This document shows positions 10,870 through 63,597 of a DNA stretch of 64,000 bases, in pieces (the stretch's first letter is position 1; the number at the start of each line of letters is the position of its first letter). Under the pieces are notes generated by a model. That model searched no databases, was not told the origin of the DNA, and saw nothing but the letters and a program-made list of their open reading frames with translations. Origin of the DNA: Thauera propionica (GTDB taxonomy: Bacteria; Pseudomonadota; Gammaproteobacteria; Burkholderiales; Rhodocyclaceae). Location of the stretch: the NCBI RefSeq assembly GCF_002245655.1, contig NZ_NOIH01000003.1, positions 372,001 through 436,000 of the forward strand. Direction: 5' to 3'. The position numbers and the translations under genes were made by a program.

Positions 10870-10881
10870 GCCCACCGCCGG

Positions 10882-10898
10882 ACGGGCTCAGAGCCCGT
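10882..10898. terminator. Short hairpin between convergent genes
   Basis: A 7-bp perfect stem (ACGGGCT and AGCCCGT) with a 3-nt loop lies between the convergent hydrolase and methyltransferase genes and overlaps the latter's stop codon. There is no T-tract, so it is a weak candidate terminator. Confidence 0.35.
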
Positions 10899-12063: not shown

Positions 12064-12146
12064 GGCGCAGGCTCGCGGCAGAAAGAAGCCCGCGATTGTA
12101 ACGGCAAGCCGAATCCGCCATGCTCGCGCCGCGACCACGACGATCA

Positions 12147-40073: not shown

Positions 40074-41776
<1,703 letters not shown>

Positions 41777-41780
<4 letters not shown>

Positions 41781-42085
41781 TCCAGCGCTCCCATCACGAG
41801 ACCGTTGAAGCCATAGACTTCGCACTCGCCGCCCAGCGCCACCAGCTCGATGGTGCGCGACTGTCCCGGCTCGAAGCGCACCGCAGTGCCGGCGGCGATG
41901 TTCAGCCGGAAGCCGCGCGCCGCCGCGCGGTCGAAGGCCAGCGCCGAGTTGGTCTCGGAAAAGTGGTAGTGCGAACCGACCTGAATCGGCCGGTCGCCGG
42001 TGTTGCTCACCACCAGCGTCAGCGTGGCGCGGCCCGCGTTGAGTTCGATGTCGCCGTCGCGCGGCATGAGTTCTCCGGGAATCAT
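41777..42085 (-). CDS. ureB: Urease beta subunit
   Basis: The 102-residue structural subunit starts [16 protein letters not shown] and includes [19 protein letters not shown] and the C-terminal YGFNGLVMG. The ATG at 42085 has AGGAG upstream and is preferred to the ATG at 42106. The stop overlaps the ureC start. Confidence 0.97.
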
Positions 42086-43888: not shown

Positions 43889-45346
43889 ATGACGCCGCCG
43901 ACGCCCCCCGCCCCGACTCCAGGCCTGCTTAGCCAGGCATGCGTGCTGCTGGCCTGCTACTGGCTGGCATGGCAGGGTTCAGCGCTGTTCGAGATCCGTC
44001 CGGACGTCAGCGCGCTCTATCTGTCTGCCGGGTTGACCACCGCCGCCGGCATGATCGGTGGCTGGCGCGCGTTGCCGCTCGCCTGCATCGCAATCTGTCT
44101 GGTACGCCTGCCGGATCTTCCCGTGGTGTCGCTGGCGACGCTCGACCTCGCCGGGGCGCTGCGGCAGGTGGCGGTCTACGGCGCGGCCGGGCTGTACCTG
44201 CGGCGGCGCTGGCAACGGGCAGCGTTCCGCTTCTCGCTCAAGGACGCCCTGCACTTCACCGTGGTCGCGCTGGTGGCAAGCTGCATGTCGGCCGGCCTCT
44301 CGCTGCACATCCCGCCCTTCGACAGCCTGCCGCAGGCGGAACTCGGCGGCGTTTTCCTGTCCTTCTGGGGCGGCGACCTTGCGGGCATGCTGCTGTTGAT
44401 CCCGGTCATCGTGATGCTGCAGGCGCGCCTCGGTCCGCGTCGAGCAAGCTTCGTGCGGCGCTGGAAGGAAGCCTTCGCCGAACGCCCGGGCGAAGCCTCG
44501 GCCACCGCGCTCCTCGTCGCCGCGGCCTGCTTCACCCTCATCGTCGTGACCCTGCCCGAACTGGGTCAGGCCGGCCCGCGACTCGCCATCCTCAGCGTGT
44601 TGCCGGTACTGGTCGCCAGCCTGCTGCGTGGTGTGCTGTTCGGCTTCGTCGTCGCGCTGCTGACCTGCGTCATCGAACTGGCCCCCATCGCGCTGTTCGA
44701 GCTGCCGGTCGAATCCGTGCTGGACCTGCAGCTGCGGCTGATCATCACGACCACCACAGCCTTGCTGGCAGGCGCCTCCCACGACGACAAGCTCTTCGAA
44801 TGGCGCCACGCCAACTTCGACCTGCTCACCGGCCTCGCCAACCGCCACCGCTTCCAGGACCAGATCGAGCACGAGCTGATGCGCGCACGGCGTCATCGGC
44901 ATTCAATGGCCCTGCTGTACATCGACCTCGACGGCTTCAAGGCGGTGAACGATGCCTACGGCCACGATGCCGGCGACGCCCTGCTGCGCCAGGTCGCCGA
45001 GCGCCTGCAGACCTGCGTGCGCGAGACCGACACCATTGCCCGCCTCGGCGGCGACGAGTTCACCATCATCCTGCCCGACCTGGCCCACGAAGGCGTGGTC
45101 GAACGCATCGGCCACGACGTGCTGCGCGAGCTCATGCGTCCCTATGCCCTCGGCAGCGTCACCGCCCACGTCTCGGCCAGCATCGGCCTGGCGCTGCATC
45201 CGCGCGACGGGGAGAGCGCCACGGACCTGATCCGCAATGCCGACCGCGCCATGTACGAGGCCAAGCGCCTCGGCCGCAACCGCATGGTCCGGCACGCCAG
45301 CATCGCCCTCCCCGTGTTCACACCGCGAAGCGACGCACCGGCCTAG
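43889..45346 (+). CDS. MASE1-GGDEF diguanylate cyclase
   Basis: This 485-residue inner-membrane protein has an N-terminal MASE1 sensory domain with about eight membrane segments (residues 10-290; DVSALYLSAGLTTAAGMIGGWR, then FLSFWGGDLAGMLLLIPVI). The GGDEF domain (about 305-470) has an intact [11 protein letters not shown] and an RETD I-site five residues before it, so product inhibition by c-di-GMP is expected. The signal is unknown. A TATAGT box at 43853 may be its -10. It shares the intergenic region with the urease promoter. Confidence 0.9.
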   Translation: MTPPTPPAPTPGLLSQACVLLACYWLAWQGSALFEIRPDVSALYLSAGLTTAAGMIGGWRALPLACIAICLVRLPDLPVVSLATLDLAGALRQVAVYGAAGLYLRRRWQRAAFRFSLKDALHFTVVALVASCMSAGLSLHIPPFDSLPQAELGGVFLSFWGGDLAGMLLLIPVIVMLQARLGPRRASFVRRWKEAFAERPGEASATALLVAAACFTLIVVTLPELGQAGPRLAILSVLPVLVASLLRGVLFGFVVALLTCVIELAPIALFELPVESVLDLQLRLIITTTTALLAGASHDDKLFEWRHANFDLLTGLANRHRFQDQIEHELMRARRHRHSMALLYIDLDGFKAVNDAYGHDAGDALLRQVAERLQTCVRETDTIARLGGDEFTIILPDLAHEGVVERIGHDVLRELMRPYALGSVTAHVSASIGLALHPRDGESATDLIRNADRAMYEAKRLGRNRMVRHASIALPVFTPRSDAPA

Positions 45347-45355: not shown

Positions 45356-46036
45356 TCAGCCGCCCGGCTTGCGCATCAGCACCACGTCCTTGCACGGCAC
45401 CTCGCACTGCCAGCCGAAGCGGTCGGCCAGCACGCGGAAGGTCGCGTCGCGGTAGAACACCACGTGGGTCGGATCACGGCGGTAGTGCCAGCCCGCGAAG
45501 CGCGCATCGTCGGTCTGGAAGCAGGTCATGACCGCCAGCCAGCCGCCTGGCCGCAGCAGGCCGTCGAGGCGGGCGAACTCGCCGGCCGGGTCGTGGAAGT
45601 GCTCGGCCACCTCGGTGCAGGTGACGAAGTCGTAGGTTCGCGCGAGGGCGGCGGGGTCCGGCGCGAAGAAGGGGTCGTACAGCGTCATCGCATGGCCAGC
45701 CGCGCGCAGCATGTCGGCCAGCGCCGGACCGGGCCCACAGCCGTAGTCCAGCCCCGCACTCGCCGGCGCCAGCCGGGCAAGCAGCGGCACCGCAAGCCGG
45801 TCGAGGAAGCGACGGTAGCCCGCATCGGCAGGATCATTGCGATGCAGCGCGTACTCCGCCCGCTCGACCTCTGCCGCCGGGCGCTGCGCGGGCGGCACGA
45901 AGGTCGCCTCGCACGCGCTGCAGCGCAGGTAGGTCCGGCCGTCGACCTGCATGAACGGGCGCGTGGCGGACGCCCGACATACCGGACAGGCGGCAAGGCC
46001 GCAATCGCCATCGGCGCTATCGTCAAAGGAACTCAT
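45356..46036 (-). CDS. Class I SAM-dependent methyltransferase with N-terminal zinc ribbon
   Basis: The 226-residue protein starts with a zinc-ribbon-like segment (CPVCRAS and LRCSACEATF, about 18-42). A methyltransferase fold follows, with LDYGCGPGPALADML (SAM motif I, about 98-112) and VTCTEVAEHFHDP. This architecture is seen in small-molecule and cell-surface methyltransferases. The substrate is unknown. It converges with the GGDEF gene, 9 bp apart. Confidence 0.8.
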   Translation of the reverse strand: MSSFDDSADGDCGLAACPVCRASATRPFMQVDGRTYLRCSACEATFVPPAQRPAAEVERAEYALHRNDPADAGYRRFLDRLAVPLLARLAPASAGLDYGCGPGPALADMLRAAGHAMTLYDPFFAPDPAALARTYDFVTCTEVAEHFHDPAGEFARLDGLLRPGGWLAVMTCFQTDDARFAGWHYRRDPTHVVFYRDATFRVLADRFGWQCEVPCKDVVLMRKPGG

Positions 46037-46280
46037 GCGCAGGATTCTACGGGCTTCATCCGGCCTGCATCATCGGGCGCCGGCTCTCCAGGACGGCCCC
46101 CGGGGCAGGCTGGGGCATCGAAAGCGAGACCCATCGGACGCTGCGCGGCAAGACTTTGTGCCGGACACCCGGACGGAAATGCCCCCTCAGCCGCCGCGCG
46201 CGTGTATGGTGTTGGGATCAGAACGTCATCCGGCGAACGAACCCCCGTTCGCCACGCCGCATGTCAGGAGGAGAAGCACC

Positions 46281-46715
46281 ATGAACGCAACTGCCACCGT
46301 CCCCGACGCCCTGCTGACCGAAGCCGAGATCCGCAAAGCGCCGCTGGATGACTACATGTCGTCCCGGCAACTGGCCTTCTTCCGCGCCAAGCTGATCGAG
46401 GAGCGCGACCAGTTGCTCGAGTCCGCCCACCGCACGACGCTGCACCTGCAGGAGTTCGAGAGCACGCCCGACCCCTCGGACCGCGCCTCGCTCGAGGAAG
46501 ACCACACCCTCGAACTGCGCGTGCGCGACCGCGAACGCAAGCTGCTGCACAAGATCGACGAGGCCCTGGTGCGCATCGACAACGGCAGCTACGGCTGGTG
46601 CGAGGACACCGGCGAGCCGATCGGCATCGCCCGCCTGCTCGCGCGGCCGACAGCCACCCTCAGCGTCGAAGCGCAGGAGATCCACGAAGCCCGACGCAAG
46701 ATGCAGGGCGGCTGA
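46281..46715 (+). CDS. DksA-family transcription factor lacking the zinc finger
   Basis: The 144-residue protein has the coiled-coil domain (FFRAKLIEERDQLLESAHRT, with the acidic tip DPSDRASLEED, about 60-72) and the C-terminal globular domain. The four zinc cysteines of DksA are reduced to one (YGWCEDTGEPIGIARLLARP, then TLSVEAQEIHE). Such forms, as in alphaproteobacteria and the DksA2 group, work without zinc. It likely acts with ppGpp on RNA polymerase. A clear AGGAGGAG site precedes the ATG at 46281. This is probably an accessory copy. Confidence 0.88.
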   Translation: MNATATVPDALLTEAEIRKAPLDDYMSSRQLAFFRAKLIEERDQLLESAHRTTLHLQEFESTPDPSDRASLEEDHTLELRVRDRERKLLHKIDEALVRIDNGSYGWCEDTGEPIGIARLLARPTATLSVEAQEIHEARRKMQGG

Positions 46716-46747: not shown

Positions 46748-47401
46748 TCAGCCGCGCGCAAGCCGCGCGAACTGGGCTACCGCGGCGGTGCGGGTCTCCA
46801 CCCCGAGCTTCTCGTAGATGTGCTCGAGGTGCTTGTTTACCGTGCGCGGGCTCATGCCGAGGATTTCCGCCACGTCGCGATTGGTCTTGCCGCGCGCAAC
46901 CCACTCCAGCACGTCCATCTCGCGCTGCGTCAGCGGATTGGGCAGCAGCGCCGAAGGCGGTTCAGCCTCCTCGCCGCGCGCGCGCATCGCCGCATTCATC
47001 TCGCGCGCCACGCGCAGGTGCGCCTGCAAGCGCGCCACCAGTTCGTCGGGCACCACCGGCTTGACCAGGTAGTCGATGCCCCCGGCCGACAAGCCTTCGA
47101 CCAGGCGCTCGGTCTCCGCCAGCCCCGTCATGAAGATCACCGGCACGGTGCGCATCCCCGGCGCCTGCTTGAGCCGGCGGCAGGTCTCGAAGCCGTCCAT
47201 GCCCGGCATGCAGGCGTCGAGCAGCACGGCGTCGGGCGTGATGCGCTCGAGCCGCTTCAGCGCGGTGGCGCCGTCGGTGGCGACCAGCACGGTGTAGCCG
47301 GCCTCGTCGAGCGCCTCGGCGATCATGCGCACCGTGTCCGGTGCGTCGTCGATCAGCAGGATGACTTCGCGCTCACGGAGCGACGGCATCGGGGCAGTCA
47401 T
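46748..47401 (-). CDS. LuxR/NarL-type response regulator
   Basis: The 217-residue protein has a receiver domain (LLIDDAPD acidic pair, phospho-Asp in [13 protein letters not shown] at about 62, Lys in LVKPVVPDE) and a C-terminal LuxR helix-turn-helix ([28 protein letters not shown], about 157-184, then [13 protein letters not shown]). The ATG at 47401 has GGAG 6 nt upstream. It overlaps the 3' end of the permease-kinase gene by 29 nt, so the kinase and regulator are made together. It is the natural candidate to bind the palindromes before urtA and amiE. Confidence 0.9.
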
Positions 47402-50400
47402 CGGCGACTCCATCGAGGGTGTGGATGAGGGTGTCAAAGCGCAGCTCCAGGGTCAGCGCGCGCAGGGTTTCCAGCGGGGCGCGGAGTTCGGGGTGCAGGG
47501 CTTCGAGTTCGTCGAGGCGACGCACCAGGCCCTGCAGGTGGCCGAGATCGGCAAACTCGCGCAGCTCGGCGCGGATGTGTCCGGACAGGGCTGACAGCGC
47601 CGCCGGCGCAAGTGGCGCGGGACGGGCGGGCACGGGGTCGTCGGCGGGCAGGACCGGCAGCAGCGCCGCAAGCTCACCCGCAGGCGCGGCCGGCGCATCG
47701 ACCGGCGGCGCATCGACCGGCGGCGTATCGCCACTCTCCGCATAGATCCACGCCAGTCCCAGCCAGGTGCTGAGGCGGGCGAACAGTTCGGTCTCCAGCA
47801 CCGGCTTGACGATGAAGTCGTCGCAGCCCGCGGCGGTGCGCCGGTCCGGCAGGTTCTCGTAGGCGTTGGCCGACACCATGACGATGGGCCCACTGTAGCC
47901 CCCGTCGCGCAGCTGGCGGCTCAGCGTCCACCCGTCGGTCACCGGCATCGACACGTCAAGGAACACGATGTCCGGCGCAAACGCCTCCACCTGGCGCAGC
48001 GCCTCGTCCGGGCGCTCGCACTCCTCGACCAGGAAGCCGCGCGGCCGCAGCATGTCGGCGATCAGGTGGCTCTGTGCGGGCTGGTCATCGACGACCAGCA
48101 GCTTGCGTCGGGGACCGAAGTAGCCACGGATCTCACGTTCGGGCCGCGTCGCCACCCGCGGATGCGCCACCCGCGGCAGATGCAGCTTGACGCGGAACAC
48201 GCTGCCGCGCCCCGGCGAGCTGCTGACCGTGAGCTGGCCGCCGGCGAGCTCGATCAGCAGGCGCGTGATGGTAAGGCCCAGGCCAGTGCCCGGCGCGCTC
48301 GGCGGCTGGTTGCCGGTGCCGCGCTCGAAGGGCTCGAAGATGCGCTCCAGGTCGGCCTCGGGAATGCCGCAGCCGGTGTCGCGGATCTCGAACACCGCGA
48401 TCTCGCTCTGGTAGGTGATCTTCAGCACCACCTCGCCGCGCTCGGTGTAGCGCACCGCGTTGGCGAGCAGGTTGATCAGGATCTGGCGCAGGCGGCTGGT
48501 GTCGCCCTGCACGACCTCGGGCATGCGCCCGGCAAACTCGGTGCGGAACGCCAGCCCCTTTCGCCCGGCCTCGAGCGCTATCATCTTCTCGACGTGGGCG
48601 AGGAATTCGCCGAAACGGAACTCCTGGCGGTTGAACTGCAGGCGTCCGGCCTCGATGCTGGCGATGTCGAGCAGGCCATCGATCAGCGCCAGCAGGTGTT
48701 CGCCGCTGCGCTGGATGGTGGAGATCGCCTCACGCCGGCGCCGCGGCAGGTCGGTATCGCGCAGCATGATCTGCGAGTAGCCGAGGATGGTGTTGAGCGG
48801 CGTGCGCAGCTCGTGGCTGATGCCGCGCACGTAGCGGCTCTTGGCCGCGTTGGCGGCCTCGGCATCCTCCTTGGCCTGCTGCAGCTTGGCGTCGGTGTCA
48901 CGGTGGGCGTCGATCTCGCGCAGCAGCAACTGGTTCTGGCGCTCGGACTCCTCCTGCGCCACCCGCCGGCTCTCGTTGGCCAGCACCAGCCACCACACCC
49001 CCACCGCCGCCAGCAGCACGAGCACCGCGAAGATGCGCAGGAAGGCCAGCCCCAGATCGGTCGCCCCCGCCTGCTCTGCCAGCAGCTCCTGCTGGTACAC
49101 CAGGCCCACGACCGAGGCGATCACCAGGCTGCTGACGAAGAACACCATCACGAACTGGCTCACGCGGCGGGCCACCCGCGCCGACATCGACGACGGCATC
49201 CAGCCTGCCAGCAAGGGCGCGAAGCGCGAGAGCAGGCCGGCGTCGGGTTTGCAGCGGTCGCGGCAGCGCGCTTCCAGCGTGCAGCACAGCGAGCAGATGG
49301 CGCCACCGTAGGCCGGGCACTGCGCCATGTCCTCGGCCTCGAAGTGGTTCTCGCACACCACGCAGCGCAACGGCTCGGCCGCGCGCCATTGCGTCTCGCG
49401 CGGCCGGGCGAGGTAGAAGCGGCCGCGCGTGCCCCACGCGATCAGCGGCGCCAGCGCAAAGGCCGTCAGCAGCGAGATGAAGGGCGCGAAGGCCTGCGCC
49501 ACCGGCCCCAGGTGGCCGCCGAAGGCGATGATGCCCAGCACCGAGCCCGCCAGCATCGCACCCACCCCCACCGGATTCACGTCGTAGAGGTAGGCGCGCT
49601 TGAACTCGATGTGGCGCGGCGACAGGCCGAGCGGCTTGTTCACCACCAGGTCGGCCACCACCGCGCCGATCCACGCCACCGCCACGTTGGCATACACGCC
49701 CAGCACGTGCTCCAGCGCCTCGAACACGCCCAGCAGCATCAGCATGAGCGCGATCAGCACGTTGAAGATCAGCCACACCACCCGCCCCGGGTGACTGTGG
49801 GTGAGGCGCGAGAAGAAATTGGACCACGCCAGCGACCCCGCATAGGCGTTGGTCACGTTGATCTTGACCTGGCAGATGATGACGAAGATGCAGGCGAGCG
49901 CGATCGCCGCGCGCGGATCGTCGACCACGTGCTGGAAGCCGGCCAGGTACATCTGCGTGGGCTGCAGCGCCTTGTCCGGCGGCACCATCGCCTGCAGCGC
50001 GAGGAAGGCGAGGAAGGCACCGCCGACCATCTTCAGCGCGCCGGGAATGATCCAGCCCGGCCCCGCCGCCACCACCGAGGCCCACCAGCGCCCGCGGTTG
50101 CGCTTTCCCGCCGACGGCAGGAAGCGCAGGAAGTCCACCTGCTCGCCGATCTGCGCGATCAGCGCGAAGGCCACGGTGCAGCCCGCCCCCACCGCCAGCC
50201 AGTCGAAGTCGTTGCCGTGGCGGCCACCGAACTCAGTGAAGGCGGCGTACAGCTCGGGCTCGCGCAGCAGCACGACGAGGAAGGGCGTCAGCAGCAGCAC
50301 CACGAACACCGGCTGCGTCCACGCCTGCAGCCGGCTGATCCAGGTGATGCCGTGCGTCACCAGCGGAATCACCGCCAGCGAACTCAGCAGATAGCCCCAC

Positions 50401-50855
50401 AGCAGCGGCAACCCGAACCACAGCTCCAGCGCCAGCGCCATGATCGCCGCCTCGATGGCGAAGAAGATGAAGGTGAAGGAGGCGTAGATCAGCGAGGTAA
50501 TGGTCGAGCCGATGTAGCCGAAGCCGGCGCCGCGGGTCAGCAGGTCCATGTCCACCGCTTCGCGCGCGGCGTAGTAGCTGATCGGCAGGCCGGTGAGGAA
50601 GATCACCAGCGCCACCAGGCCGATCGCCCACACCGCATTGGTGAAGCCCCAGTTCAGCGCGATGGTGCCGCCGATGGCCTCCATCGCCAGGAAGGACACG
50701 GCGCCGAGCGCGGTGTGGGCAATGCGCGAGAACGACCACTTGCGGAAGCTGCGCGGCGCATAGCGCAAGGCGTAGTCCTCCAGCGTCTCGTCGGCGACCC
50801 AGCTGTTGTACTCGCGACGGATGTGGATGATGCGCTGGCTGGCAGGGGCGGTCAC
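47373..50855 (-). CDS. NCS1-type permease fused to hybrid histidine kinase
   Basis: This 1160-residue membrane sensor has residues 1-480 like an NCS1 nucleobase/hydantoin permease, with about 12 membrane segments ([56 protein letters not shown]). A cysteine cluster ([16 protein letters not shown], then CSLCC and CRDRC, about 497-540) looks like a zinc or Fe-S site. Two further membrane segments (about 565-625), a HisKA/HATPase kinase ([10 protein letters not shown], His near 677; GTGLGLTI) and a receiver (Asp near 967, [11 protein letters not shown]) follow. The design parallels CbrA, which fuses an SSS permease to a kinase. The start is GTG. It is divergent from urtA. Confidence 0.88.
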
Positions 50856-51095: not shown

Positions 51096-51113
51096 ATACG
51101 TCGTTTGACGTAT
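51096..51113. promoter_or_regulatory. 18-bp operator-like palindrome upstream of urtA
   Basis: ATACGTC-GTTT-GACGTAT has perfect 7-bp arms, 120 bp before the urtA ATG. A second overlapping dyad (CGTAT-CCCC-ATACG, 51087-51100) shares its left arm. The reverse complement matches the site before amiE (63580-63597) at 17 of 18 positions. It is probably a binding site of the regulator that controls both genes. Confidence 0.6.
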
Positions 51114-51232
51114 TCGCTGTTTCGCCCCCGATGGATAGCTTGTGCACCGCAACGAGACGACGACGCACTCAGCCAAACCGGCCCGCCGCCTCGCCAGATT
51201 CGTGTTGCAGCCCACTCATCAAGGAGCGATCC

Positions 51233-52483
51233 ATGTCCGACAAGCACCTGCCTTCGTCCTCGCGCCGTACGTTCATGCTCGGCGCCGCCGCCCTCCCGCT
51301 CGCGCTGGCGATTTCCCGCATGGGTCACGCCGCCGCGCTGCCTACCGCCCAGGTCAACACCACCGGCCTGGCCGTGACCGACACCGAAGTCGTGGTCGGC
51401 CAGCTGCACTCGGCTACCGGCACCATGGCCATCTCCGAGACCGGCTCCATCCAGGCCGAACAGCTCGCCATCGACCAGATCAACGCGATGGGCGGCATCC
51501 TCGGCCGCAAGATCCGCGTCATCAAGGAAGACGGCGCTTCCGACTGGCCGACCTTCGCCGAGAAGTCGCGCAAGCTGCTGGTCAATGACAAGGTCGCCAC
51601 CGTGTTCGGCTGCTGGACCTCGGCCTCGCGCAAGGCGGTGCTGCCGATCTTCGAGAAGGAAAACGGCCTGCTCTACTACCCCACCTTCTACGAAGGCCTG
51701 GAGCAGTCGAAGAACGTCATCTACACCGGCCAGGAAGCCACCCAGCAGATCCTCTACGGCCTCGACTGGGCGAAGAAGGAAAAGGGCGCACAGAAGGTCT
51801 TCCTGGTGGGCTCGGACTACATCTGGCCGCGTACCTCGATGAAGATCGCGCGCAAGCACATCGAGAACTTCCAGGGCGGCAAGGTCGTCGGCGAGGAGTA
51901 CTACCCGCTCGGCAACACCAACTTCAACTCGCTGATCAACAAGATCAAGATCGCCAAGCCCGACTGCATCTTCGCGGCCGTGGTGGGCGGATCGAACGTC
52001 GCCTTCTACAAGCAGCTCAAGGCCGCCGGCATCACCGGCGCCAAGCAGTTCCTGCTCACGCTGTCGGTGACCGAGGACGAGATGCTGGGCATCGGCGGCG
52101 AGAACTTCGAGGGCTTCTACTCCTCGATGAAGTACTTCCAGTCGCTCGACAACGAGAACAACAAGGCCTTCGTCGAGGCCTTCAAGAAAGCCTACGGACC
52201 CAAGTCGGTCATCGGCGACGTCACCCAGGCGGCCTACCTCGGCCCGTGGCTGTGGAAGGCGGCGGTCGAGAAGGCGGGCAGCTTCGATGTGGACAAGGTG
52301 GTCGCCGCCTCGCCGGGCATCGAGCTGCCGACCGCACCCGAGGGCTACGTGAAGATCCACGAGAACCACCACCTGTACAGCAAGGCCCGCATCGCGCAGG
52401 GCCAGGCCGACGGCACCTTCAAGGTGGTGGCGGAATCGCCCGAGCTGATCGTTCCGGACCCCTTCCCCAAGGGCTACCAGTAA
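51233..52483 (+). CDS. urtA: Urea/short-chain amide ABC transporter, substrate-binding protein
   Basis: The 416-residue periplasmic protein has a twin-arginine-type signal (SSSRRTFMLGAAALPLALAI, cleaved after GHAA). It is a type I binding protein (VVVGQLHSATGTMAISE, then FGCWTSASRKAVLPIFEKENGLLYYPTFYEG) typical of UrtA/FmdD. The family binds urea, and FmdD of Methylophilus also binds formamide and acetamide. Here fmdA and amiE are linked, so amides are likely ligands too. An AAGGAG ribosome site fixes the ATG at 51233. Confidence 0.94.
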   Translation: MSDKHLPSSSRRTFMLGAAALPLALAISRMGHAAALPTAQVNTTGLAVTDTEVVVGQLHSATGTMAISETGSIQAEQLAIDQINAMGGILGRKIRVIKEDGASDWPTFAEKSRKLLVNDKVATVFGCWTSASRKAVLPIFEKENGLLYYPTFYEGLEQSKNVIYTGQEATQQILYGLDWAKKEKGAQKVFLVGSDYIWPRTSMKIARKHIENFQGGKVVGEEYYPLGNTNFNSLINKIKIAKPDCIFAAVVGGSNVAFYKQLKAAGITGAKQFLLTLSVTEDEMLGIGGENFEGFYSSMKYFQSLDNENNKAFVEAFKKAYGPKSVIGDVTQAAYLGPWLWKAAVEKAGSFDVDKVVAASPGIELPTAPEGYVKIHENHHLYSKARIAQGQADGTFKVVAESPELIVPDPFPKGYQ

Positions 52484-52567
52484 GACCCACGCGGCCGCCG
52501 CGGCGTGTGCCGCGGCGGTTTCCGGCTGTTAACAGCCGCCTTCCGCCCACCCCTCCGGAGGTCCGTC

Positions 52568-53482
52568 ATGTCGTTCGACGAAATCTACAACATCGCCCTG
52601 ATGCAGGGTTTTGCCGGCCTGAGCCTGTTCGCGGTGCTGCTGCTGATGGGTCTTGGCCTGGCGATCATCTTCGGCCAGATGGGCGTCATCAACATGGCGC
52701 ATGGCGAGTTCATGACCATCGGCGCCTACACCATCTTCCTGCTCTCCAGCCTCACCGAGAGCTACGCACCGGGCCTGATCCAGGCCTACTTCCCGTTCGC
52801 CATCGTGTGCGCCTTCCTCGTCGCCTTCGCCTTCGGCTGGCTGGCGGAATGGGCGCTGATCCGGCACCTGTACAAGCGCCCGCTCGACACCCTGCTCGCC
52901 ACCTGGGGCCTGTCCCTGGGCATGCAGCAGGCCTTCCGCACCATCATCGGGCCGAAGGAAGTGAGCCCCACCCTGCCCGACTGGCTGATGGGCTCGTGGT
53001 CGCCGGCCGAAGGGCTCGACATCCCGATCAACGGCATGTTCGTGCTCGGCCTCACCATCGTCGTCACCGGCGGCGTGCTGCTCGCGCTGTACAAGTCACG
53101 CTGGGGCCTGCGGGTCCGCGCCACGGTCGCCAACCGCAGCATGGCCAACGCGATCGGCATCAACACCACGCGCACCGACCGCGTCACCTTCGCTATCGGC
53201 TGCGGCATCGCCGGCGTGGCCGGGGCCGCCTTCACCACCATCGGCTCGACCGGCCCGACCAGCGGCTCGCTCTACATCGTCGATGCCTTCCTCGTGGTGA
53301 CCTTCGGCGGCGCAGCCAGCCTGTGGGGCACGGTGGTCTCGGCCTTCGGCATCGCGCAGACGCAGTCGATCTCCGAGTTCTTCCTGTCCGGCTCGATGGC
53401 CAAGGTGCTCACGCTGCTGCTGATCGTGACCATCCTGATGCTGCGCCCGCAAGGCCTGTTCGCCTCCAAGGTGCGCCGCTGA
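52568..53482 (+). CDS. urtB: Urea/amide ABC transporter permease UrtB
   Basis: The 304-residue LivH-type permease has about eight membrane segments. It shows FGQMGVINMAHGEFMTIGAY near residue 36 and the EAA-like loop VRATVANRSMANAIGINTTR at about 183-202. It pairs with UrtC to form the membrane channel. It starts 84 bp after urtA. Confidence 0.95.
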   Translation: MSFDEIYNIALMQGFAGLSLFAVLLLMGLGLAIIFGQMGVINMAHGEFMTIGAYTIFLLSSLTESYAPGLIQAYFPFAIVCAFLVAFAFGWLAEWALIRHLYKRPLDTLLATWGLSLGMQQAFRTIIGPKEVSPTLPDWLMGSWSPAEGLDIPINGMFVLGLTIVVTGGVLLALYKSRWGLRVRATVANRSMANAIGINTTRTDRVTFAIGCGIAGVAGAAFTTIGSTGPTSGSLYIVDAFLVVTFGGAASLWGTVVSAFGIAQTQSISEFFLSGSMAKVLTLLLIVTILMLRPQGLFASKVRR

Positions 53483-53534: not shown

Positions 53535-54755
53535 ATGGATGCAATCAAAACCTGGCTGGGACGCAGCGGCCTTGCCAGCATCGCGATCCTCGCCGTCCTG
53601 CTGCTGGTGGTGTTCCCGCTGGCGATGGACACCTTCCGCCTGAACCTGGTGGGCAAGTACCTCACCTACGGCTTCGTCGCCATCGGCCTTGTCATGCTGT
53701 GGGGCTACGGCGGCGTGCTGAGCCTGGGCCAGGGGGTGTTCTTCGGCCTCGGCGGCTACGCCATGGCCATGTTCCTGAAGCTCGAGGCGTCCGACCCCGA
53801 GAGCACCAAGATCCAATCCACGCCGGGCATCCCCGATTTCATGGACTGGAATCAGCTCACCGAACTGCCGCTGTGGTGGGAGCCGTTCAACTCCTTCGGC
53901 TTCACGCTGTTCGCGGTGGTCGCGGTGCCGGTGCTGCTGGCCTTCATCATCAGCTACGCCATGTTCAAGCGCCGCGTGGGCGGGGTGTACTTCGCCATCA
54001 TCACCCAGGCGGTGGCGCTGATCCTGACCGTGCTCATCATCGGCCAGCAGGGCTACACCGGCGGCGTCAACGGCATGACCGACCTCAAGACGCTGATGGG
54101 CTGGGACATCCGCACCGACGAAGCCAAGACGCTGCTGTACTTCCTCACCGCCGCCCTGCTGCTGGGCGCCATCCTGCTGTGCCGCTGGATCCAGCTCAGC
54201 AAGCTCGGCACCCTGCTGCTGGCCATGCGCGACAAGGAAGACCGCGTGCGCTTCTCGGGCTACGACGTGTCGATGTTCAAGGTCTTCGCCTTCTGCCTGG
54301 CGGCCGCGCTGTCGGCCATCGGCGGCGCGATGTTCACGCTGCAGGTCGGCTTCATGTCGCCGTCCTTTGTCGGCATCGTCCCCTCGATCGAGATGGTGAT
54401 CTTCGCCGCGGTGGGCGGGCGCATGAGCCTGGTGGGCGCGGTGTATGGCGCGCTGCTGGTGAATTTCGGCAAGACCTACTTCTCCGAGACCTTCCCCGAC
54501 CTGTGGCTGTTCCTGATGGCGGCGCTATTCATCGGCGTGGTCATGGCCTTCCCCAACGGTCTGGCCGGCCTGTACGAGAGCCACGTCAAGCCCTGGCTGG
54601 CGCGCCGCAAGCAGGCGCCGGCACCGGGCGGTACCGGCGGCGAGCCGCCCAGCGCAAGCGCGGCCCCGGCCGCCCCGACGGTCCCGCACACCACCACCAG
54701 CGCCGCCGTACCGACCGCCGGCATCGGCGCCAAGGTCAGCAGCCAGTCGGCCTGA
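53535..54755 (+). CDS. urtC: Urea/amide ABC transporter permease UrtC
   Basis: The 406-residue LivM-type permease has about ten membrane segments and the motif YGGVLSLGQGVFFGLGGYAMAMFL (about 57-80). The loop LLAMRDKEDRVRFSGYDVS is the ATPase-contact region. A low-complexity Pro/Ala/Thr tail of about 50 residues (after 350) is cytoplasmic and not part of the conserved fold. Confidence 0.95.
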   Translation: MDAIKTWLGRSGLASIAILAVLLLVVFPLAMDTFRLNLVGKYLTYGFVAIGLVMLWGYGGVLSLGQGVFFGLGGYAMAMFLKLEASDPESTKIQSTPGIPDFMDWNQLTELPLWWEPFNSFGFTLFAVVAVPVLLAFIISYAMFKRRVGGVYFAIITQAVALILTVLIIGQQGYTGGVNGMTDLKTLMGWDIRTDEAKTLLYFLTAALLLGAILLCRWIQLSKLGTLLLAMRDKEDRVRFSGYDVSMFKVFAFCLAAALSAIGGAMFTLQVGFMSPSFVGIVPSIEMVIFAAVGGRMSLVGAVYGALLVNFGKTYFSETFPDLWLFLMAALFIGVVMAFPNGLAGLYESHVKPWLARRKQAPAPGGTGGEPPSASAAPAAPTVPHTTTSAAVPTAGIGAKVSSQSA

Positions 54756-54776: not shown

Positions 54777-55520
54777 ATGAGCAACACCGACTTCGTCCTC
54801 GCCGTGGAAGACCTGACGGTCTCCTTCGACGGCTTCAAGGCCATCGACAGCCTCAACCTCTACGTCGATCGCGGCGAGCTGCGCGTGGTCATCGGCCCCA
54901 ACGGTGCCGGCAAGACCACCCTGCTCGACCTCATCTGCGGCAAGACCAAGGCCTCGGCCGGCAGCATCAAGTTCAAGAACCAGGAGATGACCCGGCTGCC
55001 CGAGCACATGATCGTGCGCGCCGGCATCGGGCGGAAGTTCCAGACCCCGTCCATCTACGAAAACCTCAGCGTGTTCAAGAACCTGGAGGTGTCCTACCCG
55101 CGCGGCCGCGGCGTGTTCGGCGCGCTCGGCTTCAAGTGCGACGACGCGGTCAAGGCCAAGGTCGACGAGGTCGCCGGAATGATCGGCCTCGCCGACCGCC
55201 TCGACCTCGAGGCCGGACTGCTGTCGCACGGCCAGAAGCAGTGGCTCGAGATCGGCATGCTGCTGATGCAGGACCCCGAGTTGCTGATGCTGGACGAGCC
55301 CATCGCCGGCATGAGCGCCCGCGAGCGCGAGCTCACCGCCGACCTGCTCAACCGCATCTGCCAGAACCGGTCGGTGATCGTCATCGAGCACGACATGGAT
55401 TTCGTCGCCCGCATCGCCCACAAGGTCACGGTGATGCACCAGGGAAAGATCCTCGCCGAAGGCTCGATGGACAAGGTCCAGTCCGATCCCAAGGTCATCG
55501 ACGTTTATCTAGGCCACTGA
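54777..55520 (+). CDS. urtD: Urea/amide ABC transporter ATP-binding protein UrtD
   Basis: This 247-residue LivG-type ATPase has Walker A GPNGAGKTTLLD (about 41-52) and Walker B LLMLDEPIAGMS. The signature is LLSHGQKQWLEIGML, the divergent SHGQ form found in UrtD. A switch His is present in VIEHDMDFV. It works with UrtE at the UrtBC channel. Confidence 0.95.
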   Translation: MSNTDFVLAVEDLTVSFDGFKAIDSLNLYVDRGELRVVIGPNGAGKTTLLDLICGKTKASAGSIKFKNQEMTRLPEHMIVRAGIGRKFQTPSIYENLSVFKNLEVSYPRGRGVFGALGFKCDDAVKAKVDEVAGMIGLADRLDLEAGLLSHGQKQWLEIGMLLMQDPELLMLDEPIAGMSARERELTADLLNRICQNRSVIVIEHDMDFVARIAHKVTVMHQGKILAEGSMDKVQSDPKVIDVYLGH

Positions 55521-55538: not shown

Positions 55539-56228
55539 ATGCTCAAGGTATCCAACCTCGTCGTGAACTACGGCCAGAGCGAGGCGCTGCACGGCATCTC
55601 GTTCGCGGCCGAACGCAATGAAGCCGTCGCCATCATGGGCCGCAACGGCATGGGCAAGACCACGCTGTTCAAGTCGCTGATGGGCGTGCTGCCGCTCAAG
55701 TCCGGCAGCGTCGAGGTCGACGGCCTGGAAGTCGGCAAGGACGAGAGCTTCCGCCGCGTGGCCAAGGGCATCGCCTACGTGCCGCAGGGGCGGATGATCT
55801 TCCCCACCCTCACCGTCGAGGAAAACATCCACACCGGCCTTGAGAACGCCAAGGTCAAGAAGGTGCCCGACGAGATCTACGCGCTGTTCCCGGTACTGTG
55901 GGACATGCGCCGGCGCAAGGGCGGCAACCTCTCCGGCGGCCAGCAGCAGCAGCTGGCGATCGCCCGCGCGCTCGTCACCGACCCCAAGGTGCTGCTGCTC
56001 GACGAACCCACCGAGGGCATCCAGCCCTCGATCATCAAGGACATCGCGAAGGCGCTCAACGAGATCCGCAAGATCCGCCAGATCACCATCGTCGTGTCCG
56101 AACAGGTCCTTTCCTTCGCGATGGACGTGGCCGACCGCCTGTTCGTCATCGAAGGCGGACGCCTCGTCCATGAAAGCGCGCGCGCCGACACCGACGAAGC
56201 CCACATCAAGCAGTTCCTCTCCGTGTAA
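55539..56228 (+). CDS. urtE: Urea/amide ABC transporter ATP-binding protein UrtE
   Basis: This 229-residue LivF-type ATPase has Walker A GRNGMGKTTLFKS (about 36-48), the signature GNLSGGQQQQLAIARAL and Walker B LLLDEPTEGIQPSI. The sequence AFDSR-like region of branched-chain transporters is replaced by VDGLEVGKDESFRRVAKGI, as in UrtE. It is followed by fmdA 21 bp later, so uptake and hydrolysis are in one operon. Confidence 0.95.
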   Translation: MLKVSNLVVNYGQSEALHGISFAAERNEAVAIMGRNGMGKTTLFKSLMGVLPLKSGSVEVDGLEVGKDESFRRVAKGIAYVPQGRMIFPTLTVEENIHTGLENAKVKKVPDEIYALFPVLWDMRRRKGGNLSGGQQQQLAIARALVTDPKVLLLDEPTEGIQPSIIKDIAKALNEIRKIRQITIVVSEQVLSFAMDVADRLFVIEGGRLVHESARADTDEAHIKQFLSV

Positions 56229-56249: not shown

Positions 56250-57482
56250 ATGCCTGAAACACTGATCAAGGTCGATCTGAAGCAGTCCCCCTACGAAAAC
56301 GAGATGGTGCACAACCGCTGGCACCCGGACATCCCGATGGCGTGCTGGGTGAAGCCCGGCGACGACTTCGTGCTCGAGACCTACGACTGGACCGGCGGCG
56401 CCATCAAGAACGACGACGACGCCTCGGACGTGCGCGACGTGGATCTGTCCACCGTGCACTTCCTGTCCGGCCCGGTGGGCGTCGAAGGCGCCGAGCCCGG
56501 CGACCTGCTGGTGGTCGACCTGCTCGACATCGGCGCCAAGGACGAAAGCCTGTGGGGCTTCAACGGCTTCTTCTCCAAGAACAACGGCGGCGGCTTCCTC
56601 ACCGAGCACTTCCCCCACGCACAGAAGTCCATCTGGGACTTCGAGGGCATGTTCACCAAGAGCCGCCACATCCCCGGCGTGCGCTTCGCCGGCCTCATCC
56701 ACCCTGGCCTCATCGGCTGCCTGCCCGACCAGAAGATGCTCGACATGTGGAACGAGCGCGAGGTCGACTTCATCGCCACCCAGCCCGACCGCGTGCCGCC
56801 GCTGGCCAACCCGCCCGCACCCAAGACCGCGCACATGGGCAAGCTGAAGGGCGAGGCCCGCGACAAGGCCGCCGCCGAAGGCGCCCGCACCGTGCCGCCG
56901 CGCGAACACGGCGGCAACTGCGACATCAAGGATCTGTCGCGCGGCTCGCGCGTGTTCTTCCCGGTGTATGTGAAGGGCGCCGGCCTGTCGGTGGGCGACC
57001 TGCACTTCTCGCAGGGCGACGGCGAAATCACCTTCTGCGGCGCCATCGAGATGGCCGGCTGGGTGCACATGAAGGTCAGCCTCATCAAGGGCGGCATGGC
57101 CAAGTACGGCATCAAGAACCCGATCTTCAAGCCCAGCCCGATCACGCCCAACTACAAGGACTACGTGATCTTCGAAGGCATCTCGGTCGACGAACAGGGC
57201 AAGCAGCACTACCTGGACGTGCACGTCGCCTACCGCCAGGCCTGCCTCAACGCCATCGAGTACCTGAAGAAGTTCGGCTACTCCGGCGCCCAAGCCTACT
57301 CCATCCTCGGCACCGCACCGGTGCAGGGCCACATCAGCGGCGTGGTCGACATCCCCAACGCCTGCGCCACGCTGTGGCTGCCCACCGAGATCTTCGACTT
57401 CGACATCAACCCCACCGCCGAAGGGCCGACGAAGTTCATCAGCGGCGGCGTCGACATGCCAATCGCCTACGACAAGACCTGA
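56250..57482 (+). CDS. fmdA: Formamidase/acetamidase
   Basis: FmdA hydrolyses formamide, and more slowly other short amides, to the acid and ammonia. The 410-residue cytoplasmic enzyme matches the FmdA_AmdA family (NRWHPDIPMACWVKPGDDFVLETYDWTGG-like start, GFFSKNNGGGFLTEHFP, PGVRFAGLIHPGLIG, HGGNCDIKDLSRGSRVFFPV). The family does not use a nitrilase-type Cys. Linkage to urtABCDE and fmdB repeats the arrangement of the Methylophilus fmd genes. Confidence 0.95.
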   Translation: MPETLIKVDLKQSPYENEMVHNRWHPDIPMACWVKPGDDFVLETYDWTGGAIKNDDDASDVRDVDLSTVHFLSGPVGVEGAEPGDLLVVDLLDIGAKDESLWGFNGFFSKNNGGGFLTEHFPHAQKSIWDFEGMFTKSRHIPGVRFAGLIHPGLIGCLPDQKMLDMWNEREVDFIATQPDRVPPLANPPAPKTAHMGKLKGEARDKAAAEGARTVPPREHGGNCDIKDLSRGSRVFFPVYVKGAGLSVGDLHFSQGDGEITFCGAIEMAGWVHMKVSLIKGGMAKYGIKNPIFKPSPITPNYKDYVIFEGISVDEQGKQHYLDVHVAYRQACLNAIEYLKKFGYSGAQAYSILGTAPVQGHISGVVDIPNACATLWLPTEIFDFDINPTAEGPTKFISGGVDMPIAYDKT

Positions 57483-57565
57483 GCCCGCCTCAACCGCTGC
57501 GCCTTCCACCGCAGCCCGCCCGCCGCCGCAGCCCGCGCGGCGGGCACCGCCACCGGGAGCCCACC

Positions 57566-57910
57566 ATGCCGACCTACGAATACTTCTGCGAAGACTGCGG
57601 CGACTTCTCCGCCCTGCGCCCCATGAGCGCCCGCAACGAACCCTGCGCCTGCCCCCACTGCGGCACCGAGTCCTACCGCATCATGCTCAGCGCCCCGACG
57701 CTGGCGACGATGGACGGTGCTACCCGCAGCGCCCACGCCACCAACGAACGCGCGGCCAATGCACCAATGACCAGCGCGGAGTATGCGGCGCGGCACAAGC
57801 ACGGGCCGGGGTGTGGGTGTTGCAGCGGGAAACCGTCAAAGTCGACGGTCAGGGCGGCCGATGGGTCGAAGGCGTTTCCGACGAAGAGGCCGTGGATGAT
57901 TAGTCACTGA
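57566..57910 (+). CDS. fmdB: FmdB zinc-ribbon protein
   Basis: The 114-residue protein begins with the FmdB zinc ribbon MPTYEYFCEDCGDFSALRPM (CxxC) with its partner CPHCGTESYRIM near residue 30. A second cysteine cluster (HGPGCGCCSGKP) lies near 80. FmdB is proposed to regulate formamidase expression, though this role is unproven. It is the last gene before a hairpin terminator. Confidence 0.88.
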   Translation: MPTYEYFCEDCGDFSALRPMSARNEPCACPHCGTESYRIMLSAPTLATMDGATRSAHATNERAANAPMTSAEYAARHKHGPGCGCCSGKPSKSTVRAADGSKAFPTKRPWMISH

Positions 57911-58122: not shown

Positions 58123-61100
58123 TCACCCGTGTCGGCGAAGATATGCCATGAGTCGATCAAAGCGCGGATCAGCCTCCAATTCTGACATGGCTGTCCGGAC
58201 CGCCTCCAGACATGCGCCCAGGTCATGCGGAGGCCATTGGGCTTGTTCGCGTATTACCAGACTCAGAAACTCGAGCGCCTGTTCAGGGAACCTGCCGCAA
58301 AGATTGGCTTCATGAAGCCGATGCACCAAGTAATCAGGATGGGCCAAAGGTTGCAGCCAGGCGCGCAGCAGCGCCAATGCCTCTGGGAACGCATCCTGTG
58401 CCGCGATGCACAGGCTGCCGAGGCTCTTGGCGATGGCTGGGCAAATGTTGTCCCGGGTCTTGGGCCAGATGGCGTGAAGGTACGGGGCACACCGGTTGCT
58501 CCAGTAGTCGGCCCGTTGATCGCCCGCGCCCTCGAGCGCCCTCACCAATGCCTGTGAGGCATCGTGCAAACCGTCCGGTGGCAGTGCGCGGGTAGCGGCC
58601 GCCAGCTCGGCGGTGGTGAAAATGTCACCCGGGTCGAGGGCGGCGAATGTGAGCAGCGATGCGTATTGCCCCCGGTGCTTGCCGAGTGCCGCATAGTGGT
58701 GCGCGGTGTCGAGAAAGGCTGGCTTGAGTACTTCCATAAAGGGTCGGTACAGGCGGGGCGAGCACAGGAAGCCTTCCCAAGCCGCACGCGCTTCGGCTTG
58801 GGAACGGTGCCAGTCGAACAGCGGCAACAGATGCTGCATCGCCCACTCCCGGTCGACACGGAATAGCGCAATGACATTGGCTGCCAGCAAGACACGGCCA
58901 TGCCGGAACTTTTCGATCCGAGTATCGCAGAGTTCGATGAATGTGGGCTTGAGCTTCGCTGGCAAGCCTTGCCCGTCCTCCAGCGAGCCTCGATACCACC
59001 AGCGCAGCAATGCTTCTGTGACTTTGCCGACCGGGTGGTTGATGGCACGCATGACGGGCTCGTCGGTATCGACGCCGTCCTGATGGTCCAGCGCCAGGAT
59101 TCGGCGAGCCAACCCGAAGAAGTGCGCTTCGTGACCTTCGAAGGTCTTGGCGATAACTTGTAGCCACCGACTGACGCCATGAGCGAGTGTTTGCAGCAGA
59201 TCATCGTCTGCATCCGCGAGTACTGGTGCCATGTAGCGCCAAGAGCGCCCGAGTAGCTTCGCTTCAGACCAAGCCTGTAAAGCATCCCGCCAGCGATCGT
59301 CCGGCCAAACGTTCTGTCTTGCCATATGGCACAGGGCGTACGCTGTGGCTTGAAAGCTGTCTTCACAACGTTTCCGCCAGTCGTCTTGCTTCGAGTCGGC
59401 CAACACTGGATTTGCGATCAAGTAATTCAGTAAGCCGCGCCTGCTGCGAGGTATTGAGACAAAATCTCGCCACGGGTCCCTGTCGCCCATCCAGCCACTT
59501 TCCATCCAGTAAGGAAACTCGTCGCGCTGATCTGCCGCGAGTTGCCAATCTGGATACTGGGCTGCGAGCGCCTCCAGTCGTTCCTTACCTGTCACATCCA
59601 AGGCCGCGCCGGCCTCGGCGATCTTTGCCAGCCGCAGCCAGATCTCGCGGTCAACAATCCGCATCCAACGCTCGGGCTCGATGTCGTCATTGAACATCTC
59701 GCGAGGAGGCCCAGCGAGCACAGCCTGTTCCAGTTCCCGCAGCATTACTGCATCGAGTTGCGGTGCAAGGGCCACCAGCAGGCGCATGGCCTCACGTTCT
59801 GTTTCCACCGACCAAAGCCACCAGTGGTCAGCCGCCAGCAGCCAGTCGAGTGCGCGCCGAAGGGGTATCACGTCGTCCTGCGCGGCGGCAAAGAAGGCGA
59901 GGCGCCGGAACAGCGGATATGGCGTGTGCCACCAGGATTCCGCTGCGAGCACTGCCCGCTCGGGGGATCGGGAAGCCGTGGCCAACCAGGCATCACGCGT
60001 CAGCTCGATCAATGCCGTCCAGTCGTGAAAGTCCCGGTTCTGTGGGTGCTCGCTGATCGACGGCTGATGCATGTAGGAGAGATCGCTCCTGTCCTCGGCG
60101 CTGCCGAGCTCGCGCATCAGATCCAGCGCGTCGCGCAACAAGGCGCTGAAATCGGGAAGCAGTTCCGGCAAGGCAGCCGTCCAGTGCTTATCCTTCGGCA
60201 TATCGCGCAGGCTGGAGTGGACGTGATCCGATGACAGCACAATCTCCCATTCGACCAGATCCTTGATGCGCTCGGGTTTGGAGTCGTCACTTTCCTCGGC
60301 GGGCCAACGGAACGACTCGCGCAGTGATACGCGTGGCGTCAGCGTTTCGCGCAGTTCCAGGCGGAGGGTGGTGGTGAGCCCATCGCGCTTGAAGCGGTCG
60401 CGCCAGCGATACAGGTCGAAGTCGCGCAGCCACGATTTCACTCGCCCGGTCAGCAGCAGCCGCCACAGGGTGCGCATTAGCGGGCCGGGGGTCGCGTTGG
60501 GTGCGCCCTCACAAATGCGCGCCAACTCAGCGGTGTTGCCCTCGCGTTCAAGTTTGGCTAGCTCGTCCAGACGGTGTTCGATCCACCAGACCAGATCGTC
60601 ATGAAGCTGCCCGCCGCGCTTGACCAGCCAAAGCAGCAGCGCCGGGTCGTCAAGATGACGGATCAGCCAGCGTGCCAGTTGCCGCATCACTTCGTCCCAG
60701 CGGCTGCTGCGCGCGCCAGCATCGACCAAACACATCAATGGCGCCAGGGGATAAGGCGAAGGCCGTCCGGTCAGGCTGAAGGTGAGCTTGTCATCCACGG
60801 TCGCTCTGGGCGGGACGCCGAAGCGGCCCAGGTCGCAATGCCGGTAGCGCTCCTCGCTCAGGGGCTCCAGCCAATCCAGTGACGGCACAGGGTCCAGATC
60901 GGCAAAGCGCCTGGCGGGCAAGCCGCCCGGATCGCTCAGTGCCCAGAGCAGGCGGCCGACGAAGTCGTCCTGCCGGGTGCTTGCCAAGGGGCGGGCCATG
61001 GCACATTCGACCACGATGCGCTCCTTGCCGCGCACCCCGTCGCGGTAGGTGTCGGCCCAGGCGCGCAGGGTCTTGTGCAGGTAGGCGTGGCGATTGTGCT

Positions 61101-61920: not shown

Positions 61921-62048
61921 AGCCATTCACCTCGGACGACTGGAGTGTCCAAGTCTTTTTCAATCGAAGAAGTCGGAACTTATCAGGGTTTCTGAAGGAT
62001 GATCAGCGTCAGCGTCGCGACTTGAGTGTTGCCGGACCCGCCACCAGA

Positions 62049-63449: not shown

Positions 63450-63579
63450 GTGTTCCTCGTTCGTGCAACGTCTCTTCGCGCTCGAGCCCTTGCGCGCCGC
63501 AGCGAGCGTAGACGATATCAGGGACGGTGGAATCATCTATGCAATTCAGATTCACCATCGAATCACCCAAGCAGCCCCG

Positions 63580-63597
63580 ATACGTCAAACAACGTAT
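63580..63597. promoter_or_regulatory. 18-bp operator-like palindrome upstream of amiE
   Basis: ATACGT-CAAACA-ACGTAT lies 73 bp before the amiE ATG. Its sequence is the reverse complement of the urtA site (51096-51113) with one change. A TTGTGC-AGC-GCAC element follows directly (63598-63610). This links amiE to the urt-fmd operon across the inserted genes. Confidence 0.6.

Follow-up and report, generated by a model that had tools for sequence, protein, structure and literature searches.

A permease–histidine kinase fusion beside urea and amide genes in Thauera propionica as a candidate two-component receptor for urea or short-chain amides

The fusion kinase and its surroundings

We analysed a 64,000-nucleotide stretch of DNA from Thauera propionica (RefSeq assembly GCF_002245655.1, contig NZ_NOIH01000003.1, positions 372,001 to 436,000 of the forward strand; hereafter the window, with coordinates counted from its first letter), which belongs to a genome of 3.93 Mb, and focused on a gene in which a membrane permease is joined to a hybrid histidine kinase. 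The open reading frame (47373–50855, minus strand, as are all its parts) starts with GTG and runs uninterrupted for 1160 residues. Its N-terminal part is an NCS1-type permease domain (residues 1–485; 49401–50855), whose polytopic membrane region reaches approximately residue 476 by hydropathy. This is followed by a domain with eight cysteines (residues 498–535; 49251–49364), recognised by the conservation of its cysteines and by weak fold matches, and by an extra two-helix hairpin in front of the kinase (residues 564–629; 48969–49166), whose helices hydropathy places within residues 561–589 and 596–629. Pfam then identifies a HisKA domain (residues 671–737; 48645–48845), with the phospho-acceptor histidine read from the motif at residue 681, a HATPase_c domain (residues 784–894; 48174–48506) and a Response_reg receiver (residues 920–1028; 47772–48098). 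The motifs expected of a hybrid kinase are intact (SHELRTPL at 680, DTGCGI at 826, GTGLGL at 856 and FLDVSMP at 965), and with an H-box HisKA, a HATPase_c and a receiver aspartate the predicted protein qualifies as a hybrid histidine kinase. Pfam detected no SLC5 (SSF) domain in the fusion, and profile scans with Pfam and NCBIfam found neither a STAC nor a PAS domain between permease and kinase.

The partner gene, on the same strand, encodes a LuxR/GerE-type response regulator (46748–47437; Response_reg and GerE by Pfam), and its longest open reading frame overlaps the end of the kinase by 65 bp. Upstream of the kinase and divergent from it stands a urtABCDE-fmdAB operon on the plus strand, composed of urtA (51131–52483, with the true start perhaps at 51233; TIGR03407), urtB (52505–53482; TIGR03409), urtC (53535–54755; TIGR03408), urtD (54777–55520; TIGR03411) and urtE (55539–56228; TIGR03410), all five subunits passing the curated NCBIfam cut-offs, followed by fmdA for a formamidase (56250–57482; NF045496, over cut-off) and a gene for an fmdB-type (RPWMISH) zinc-ribbon protein (57566–57910 from the listed reading frame, scanned as 57530–57880; Zn_ribbon_8, and NF053663 over cut-off). 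Further along the plus strand, amiE for an aliphatic amidase (63670–64000) is cut by the window end and complete in the genome (L260), where its product scores 724.9 bits with the equivalog NF009802 against a cut-off of 427 and is 80% identical to an annotated aliphatic amidase. On the other side of the regulator, urease genes occupy 38–44 kb of the window (ureD, ureC and ureG were scanned), and ureC for urease alpha (40074–41825, minus strand; domain scan), about 4.9 kb beyond the regulator, is likely the physiological partner. A preliminary description of the window had placed permease, cysteine-rich stretch, kinase and receiver in one 1160-residue chain that overlaps its own LuxR-type regulator and diverges from urtABCDE-fmdAB; reading frame, Pfam and hydropathy agree on the chain, the 65-bp overlap holds between the longest open reading frames, and each gene of the operon exceeds its NCBIfam cut-off.

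The permease branch, its cysteine tail and its stand-alone relatives

The same description had called the permease NCS1. The window's permease part matches nothing in Pfam, NCBIfam or the PDB sequences, and a 40-row profile of its family retrieved only three zinc-finger chains from the PDB sequences, with E of 4.4 or worse. Because neither Pfam nor NCBIfam matches the permease part, its identity had to be established through relatives. Among 40 diverse family members two reach PF02133, and a stand-alone homologue from Klebsiella pneumoniae, which is 45% identical to the window permease over 517 residues, scores 38.1 bits with this model against a cut-off of 23.5. Moreover, hhalign (160 family sequences supplied, 100 used by the program) aligned the family with Escherichia coli CodB plus ten NCS1-like loci at a probability of 99.96 over 404 columns; with CodB as a single sequence the probability was just 49.5 over 147 columns. 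In CodB, Arg216 and Tyr285 are described as constant as more diverse NCS1 sequences enter the comparison (PMC9379551), and they align with R244 and Y338, each of which is present in all 147 fused and all 13 free permeases counted here. These counts derive from 162 collected sequences, including 15 short open reading frames; one of the latter (L229) is not a member, which leaves 14 stand-alone permeases, and the partial L238 (383 residues) was left out. Given this homology via relatives and the aligned Arg/Tyr pair, the NCS1 label is right, and the window permease is a remote NCS1 branch.

Compared with the NCS1 permeases CodB and Mhp1, the window permease aligns by profile over those 404 columns and shares the Arg/Tyr pair of CodB; it differs in being fused to a kinase, in its low identity of 18%, in its cysteine tail and in an exchanged tryptophan of transmembrane helix (TM) 3. 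The position of CodB Trp108 is reported to be predominantly Trp across NCS1 (PMC9379551), and in the fused proteins it is Phe in 119 and Leu in 28. Trp108 is one of the two aromatics that sandwich the base; in TM6 the profile alignment contains a gap. Of the NCS1 substrate-site residues, a check of which was suggested in the preliminary description, the Arg/Tyr pair is kept and the Trp108 position is changed. CodB Thr278 and Thr279 align with K331 and I332 once the ten NCS1-like loci are added, and another profile alignment is gapped in TM8; an invariant Lys331 on Thr278 would, tentatively, argue against a sodium site.

The cysteine-rich stretch had been taken for a linker between permease and kinase. 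However, stand-alone permeases end in the same domain, and we therefore assign it to the permease family as a C-terminal tail rather than to the fusion. Four cysteines (C498, C501, C521 and C524) are present in 13 of 13 free and in 143–146 of 147 fused proteins, and four further ones in 139–146 of the fused and in 5 of the 13 free; all eight occur in the five formamidase-linked free proteins described below, and the extra four are missing from eight of the urease class. For example, WXI99092.1, a K. pneumoniae 'cytosine permease' encoded after a urease operon and 45% identical to the window permease over 517 residues, has the same start of the tail and differs in being stand-alone, without a kinase, and in having a four-cysteine tail. 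The domain possibly binds zinc. Its model reaches a predicted local distance difference test (pLDDT) value of 61.7, with a core above 70, and its RING-, FYVE- and PHD-like matches are weak, none at E of 0.001 or below.

The stand-alone permeases fall into two classes. Those of the first lie directly behind ureD-A-C-E-G in eight of nine cases (L163, L213, L230–L234 and L238), and the single miss, L159, is an 8.3-kb contig with none of these genes that was assigned to the class by the tree. In the second class the free permease heads a permease-fmdA-fmdB-amiE cluster divergent from a fusion kinase (L214, L235, L236 and L237) and thus occupies the place where urtABCDE-fmdA-fmdB-amiE stands elsewhere; in the fifth member, L169, a pair of kinase and regulator genes precedes it, and fmdA-fmdB are divergent. 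That a free permease takes the position of the urea/amide ABC transporter is our main reason to name urea and short-chain amides as substrate. The permeases behind urease operons are probably urea/amide permeases that appear to be misnamed, and one of them (L163, 8941–10548) is annotated 'cytosine permease' directly behind the urease operon. Its 5.37-Mb record (CP125156.1) is filed as a plasmid and is evidently a chromosome, since it carries urease, rpoD and tsaD. In L235, the fmdA behind the free permease (G1190:C1:3944817–3946047) matched as two pieces in different frames and may for that reason be frameshifted.

Free and fused permeases differ at a few nearly fixed positions, namely Y55F, G136A, L173I and S339A, where the first letter is found in 13 of 13 free and the second in 144, 141, 143 and 144 of 147 fused proteins, respectively. 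In addition, D58 is present in all 13 free proteins and is not among the four commonest letters of the fused ones, which cover 145 of 147, and E59 is found in 146 of the 147. Position 55 aligns with CodB Phe33 in TM1, which is said to shape the substrate pocket (PMC9379551). At the same time, free and fused permeases have in common 52 conserved positions with polar, charged, Trp, Pro or Cys residues, including E26, D27, D102, D104, R108, E135, Q235, E238, Q239, D241, R244, K331, N333, N336 and Y338. In a tree made by a quick method from tblastn frames, six outgroup rows fall on one side (99), the fused rows are set apart by one change (78) and the free rows by one change (support 62), with a distant outgroup and a base that is not resolved. 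This tree fits a single fusion, short of proof, and because all free/fused differences lie on one split of it they are no independent replicates.

Gene linkage and a shared inverted repeat

The family was surveyed in 399 genomes of the window's order and 398 of its phylum, together with plasmid records. The fusion is present in 64 of the 399 order genomes (the window's own counted, some copies cut by contig ends) and any family match in 74, the remainder being stand-alone, partial or distant NCS1 proteins; family matches, again including some distant NCS1 proteins, occur in 61 of the 398 phylum genomes and in 532 plasmid records, 342 of them from Klebsiella. The fusion is likewise found on alpha-, beta- and gammaproteobacterial plasmid records, and with this recurrence across genomes and plasmids it is no chance event.

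Gene linkage was counted in 122 fused loci, 66 from the order and 56 from the class and phylum searches, with the window itself, the stand-alone L213 and L159 and the non-member L229 excluded and with L160–L170 and L230–L249 outside the count. A locus was taken as linked if the roughly 9 kb upstream or 11 kb downstream of the fused gene contained any urt, urease, fmdA, fmdB or amiE gene. By this measure 102 of the 122 loci are linked (urt in 92, fmdA in 66, urease in 33 and amiE in 32), as are 84 of the 92 with long flanks (at least 7 kb upstream and at least 9 kb downstream), and a LuxR-type regulator follows the kinase in 115. None of 50 related kinase loci without the permease, drawn from many phyla rather than matched to the genomes surveyed and with a mean length of 16 kb against 18 kb for the family loci, contains urt, ure, fmd or amiE genes at the same thresholds. 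With 102 of the 122 linked, the homologues do not lie mostly beside unrelated genes, the outcome that the preliminary description had named as refuting its proposal. On annotated plasmids urt stands beside the fusion in Burkholderia, Paraburkholderia, Sinorhizobium, Klebsiella, Enterobacter, Thioclava, Roseomonas, Methylobacterium and Rhizobium, and a Methylovirgula plasmid record has fmdA-fmdB only; the regulator is present in ten of ten plasmid loci tested and is omitted from the gene tables of the Klebsiella and Enterobacter plasmids. Furthermore, among 85 genomes of one gammaproteobacterial order, ureC or fmdA occurs in 39 of 40 with the permease family versus 4 of 45 without it (Fisher value 2e-18, indicative only because related species are not independent).

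The intergenic regions between urtA and the kinase share a sequence element. TACG-N8-CGTA is present in 54 of 64 such regions (65 sites), whereas the commonest word in five shuffles reached 8–12 of 64. The consensus, ATACGTCA-N2-TGACGTAT, is an inverted repeat of 7-2-7 geometry with TAC...GTA ends, which we take to be the kind of site that NarL-type LuxR regulators bind. A matrix trained on the 54 positive regions, which for that reason are no independent support for its sites, found 120 sites of at least 16 bits in 156 loci versus 0–4 hits with ten column-shuffled matrices, and 115 of the 120 lie upstream of a kinase, urtA, fmdA, amiE or free-permease gene, at most 650 bp from its start. Sites precede 55 of 64 window-type urtA genes, 11 of 74 fmdA, 4 of 40 amiE and 4 of 13 free permeases, and none of 63 urtB or 194 regulator-query starts. 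With a relaxed cut-off, a site appears in 44 of the 92 family loci that have no divergent urtA and in 3 of the 50 permease-less kinase loci. Of the twelve loci L031–L042, which lay outside the training, eleven contain a site in the gap that separates urtA from the kinase, and the twelfth is truncated; this test is weakly independent, as seven of the twelve are close relatives of the window (82–96% identity).

In the window, one putative operator, ATACGTCGTTTGACGTAT (51096–51113), lies between kinase and urtA, and a second, ATACGTCAAACAACGTAT (63580–63597), lies 72 bp before amiE and outside the regions used for motif training. A looser pattern with up to two mismatches would be expected 0.75 times in the window and occurred at least twice in 18 of 100 shuffles; both copies found have no mismatch. 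In the whole genome, the pattern with up to three mismatches occurs at 35 places versus 92 for a reversed control pattern. When the matrix core was scored at 48 distinct places of this genome, those with the exact core or up to three mismatches, the urtA/kinase site (23.9) and the amiE site (21.4) were the two best. Both sites recur in Thauera butanivorans (L037), one ahead of urtA/kinase and one ahead of amiE.

A candidate urea or amide receptor, and further observations at the locus

With the architecture, the family, the linkage and the inverted repeat with its placement as the observed basis, we believe, at a probability of about 0.7, that the fusion is the receptor kinase of a two-component system that responds to urea, to short-chain amides or to both and controls urt-fmd-amiE. 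According to this model, a permease of an NCS1 branch handling urea or small amides would have become fused to a hybrid histidine kinase, joined by the zinc-finger-like tail that the permease already had at its C-terminus and by a hairpin of two helices added to it. Substrate in the permease site would change the conformation of the permease, this change would pass through the cysteine domain and the hairpin to the kinase dimer, and phosphate would be handed to the adjacent LuxR/GerE regulator, perhaps via the kinase's own receiver. The regulator would then bind the repeat and switch urtABCDE-fmdAB, amiE and probably the kinase genes too. We infer from sequence comparison that urea or an amide is the ligand and that the permease part binds it, and we likewise infer binding of the repeat by the LuxR-type regulator, activation as the mode of regulation and the path of the phosphate. 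Urease seems to lie outside the direct regulon.

Several observations weigh against this model. Twenty of the 122 fused loci have no urea or amide genes nearby, eight of them with long flanks (L120, L123, L134, L140, L153, L154, L215 and L216); in L120 (G363) the kinase (8977–12363) adjoins nifHDK and draT, with no urea or amide gene within 9–11 kb, and in L134 it adjoins flagellar genes. The repeat precedes just 75 of 143 kinase and 18 of 36 canonical urtA starts and none of 40 ureD or 45 ureA starts. In the genome of the window, a third fairly good copy outside the window (TACGTGAAACCACGTA, G000:C2:49812–49827, score 19.4) has no assigned target, and if mismatches alone are counted, two places on contig C56 equal the amiE copy. 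An AlphaFold2 model of residues 1–640 from 12 alignment rows reached a pLDDT of 51, too poor a model of the whole permease for a binding site to be visible. Finally, since fused and free permeases differ at near-fixed sites, the fused sensor may recognise something slightly different from the free permeases.

Other explanations share part of this evidence. The fused permease could be a true transceptor that still transports urea or amide while the kinase reads its turnover, in line with the flux sensing envisaged in the preliminary description and with what has been proposed for CbrA, whose SLC5 part transports histidine (PMC13022988, PMC7918813). The 52 positions conserved in free and fused permeases alike would fit this, and we regard it as unlikely without dismissing it, as the near-fixed differences Y55F, G136A, L173I, S339A and D58/E59 separate the two groups and position 55 coincides with CodB Phe33. 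In view of these differences, which lie in TM1, TM3 and TM8, an occupancy receptor is no less likely than a flux sensor. Alternatively, the permease might sense a nucleobase, hydantoin, ammonium or general nitrogen status, with the urea genes as mere outputs. Pfam does call the wider family cytosine/purine permease, and the L120 locus stands beside nif genes; yet no codA-like gene, the only nucleobase or hydantoin marker looked for, lies in the family loci, the stand-alone homologues are accompanied by urease or formamidase genes, and the NCS1-typical Trp108 position is Phe or Leu in the fused proteins, so we hold this idea improbable. Of the signals proposed in the preliminary description, urea or an amide has thus gained from the linkage and a nucleobase has not.

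A further possibility is that the repeat belongs to a different regulator, such as a nitrogen regulator, that shares these promoters. About half of the kinase starts lack the repeat, and the linked regulator is joined to it by our reasoning above; however, the repeat recurs at kinase promoters, at urtA genes moved away from the kinase, at fmdA, at amiE and in the gap between kinase and free permease, 47 of the 50 permease-less kinase loci lack it even at the relaxed cut-off, and its 7-2-7 geometry is that of NarL-type LuxR regulators, all of which makes a foreign regulator decidedly improbable. We give the least credence to an input of metal or redox signals at the eight-cysteine domain with the permease as a mere membrane anchor. 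The conservation of the eight cysteines in 139–146 of 147 fused proteins would agree with it, but four of them (and all eight in the five formamidase-linked proteins) also occur in stand-alone permeases that have no kinase, and many residues of the permease core are invariant.

A wider scenario follows the receptor-kinase model further, and we offer it tentatively, at somewhat less than even odds. An unfamiliar NCS1 branch would transport urea and short-chain amides, and one member would have been captured once as a kinase input, would have lost transport (Y55F, loss of D58 and gain of E59, G136A and S339A, in TM1, TM3 and TM8) and would have become a urea/amide receptor by means of its inherited zinc-finger tail, governing through one conserved operator a regulon of alpha-, beta- and gammaproteobacteria, IncF-type Klebsiella plasmids included.

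Transporter domains joined to kinases have precedents. Like the window fusion, CbrA, CrbS/MxtR, PrlS and RpuS join a transporter domain to a kinase, in their case one of SLC5 type (PMC13022988, PMC7918813, PMC9100948), and CrbS, RpuS and PrlS also resemble it in being hybrid kinases. The precedent of CbrA, invoked in the preliminary description, is sound in its logic, but the sensor here is NCS1-type and not SLC5. CrbS/CrbR, PrlS/PrlR and RpuS/RpuR are described with LuxR-type partners, and the adjacent operon mctP, for a free transporter, is under the control of RpuS/R (PMC9100948, PMC7918813); with these two features RpuS/R is the closest functional parallel. Unlike the SLC5/STAC kinases, the window fusion has an NCS1-type sensor, the eight-cysteine domain with two extra helices, and urea/amide genes as neighbours. 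In the ammonium sensor kinase Ks-Amt5, too, a nutrient transporter domain is fused to a kinase, and its transporter part reportedly no longer transports and has acquired a receptor site (PMC5764959); it differs in its Amt-type sensor and its anammox host, and its response regulator is reported as not yet identified. Together with the residue changes, which all fall on one split of a tree with an unsettled base, this parallel favours a receptor over a transporter. With regard to the neighbouring genes, the authors of a study of wastewater bacteria suspect formamide import by the urt genes next to fmdA (PMC13209695), and a Klebsiella preprint describes the urtABC-amiF cluster without using the words 'histidine kinase' (PMC13060141). 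Neither an NCS1-kinase fusion nor a urea two-component receptor of this kind was the subject of any paper that we found in the open-access literature, with most subscription journals outside that search, and the papers found offer no counterpart to a two-component receptor dedicated to urea or small amides. Among the systems compared, NCS1 would be the third transporter family, after SLC5 and Amt, in which a transporter has turned receptor. The candidate receptor, regulator, DNA site and target list can be put to the test at once in many species, the stand-alone sister permeases offer built-in controls for the residues that separate transport from signalling, and 'cytosine permeases' behind urease operons may need to be renamed as urea/amide permeases.

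The fusions themselves vary in length. Shorter ones of 879–925 residues occur in L205, L211, L148 and L149, all four having fmdA- and fmdB-like genes no farther than about 11 kb away, and that of L205, with fmdA and fmdB beside it, consists in the domain scan of HisKA and HATPase without a receiver. Longer ones of 1373 and 1396 residues occur in L153 and L154, with no urea genes found near either, and the L153 protein has two receivers and an HPt domain. In L136, a CbiM-type gene of a cobalt uptake family (8165–8896) lies beside a fusion kinase that lacks the usual neighbours; nickel would fit urease.

In the window, a MASE1-GGDEF diguanylate cyclase (43889–45346, plus strand) and a DksA-type protein with an N-terminal extension (45951–46715, plus strand) are encoded between the urease genes and the regulator. 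Between fmdB and amiE lie genes for a SIR2-like-domain protein of 1267 residues (58123–61926, minus strand) and a RhuM-family protein (62400–63536, minus strand), as though the fmd-ami cluster had been interrupted by an island; amiE has its own copy of the inverted repeat.

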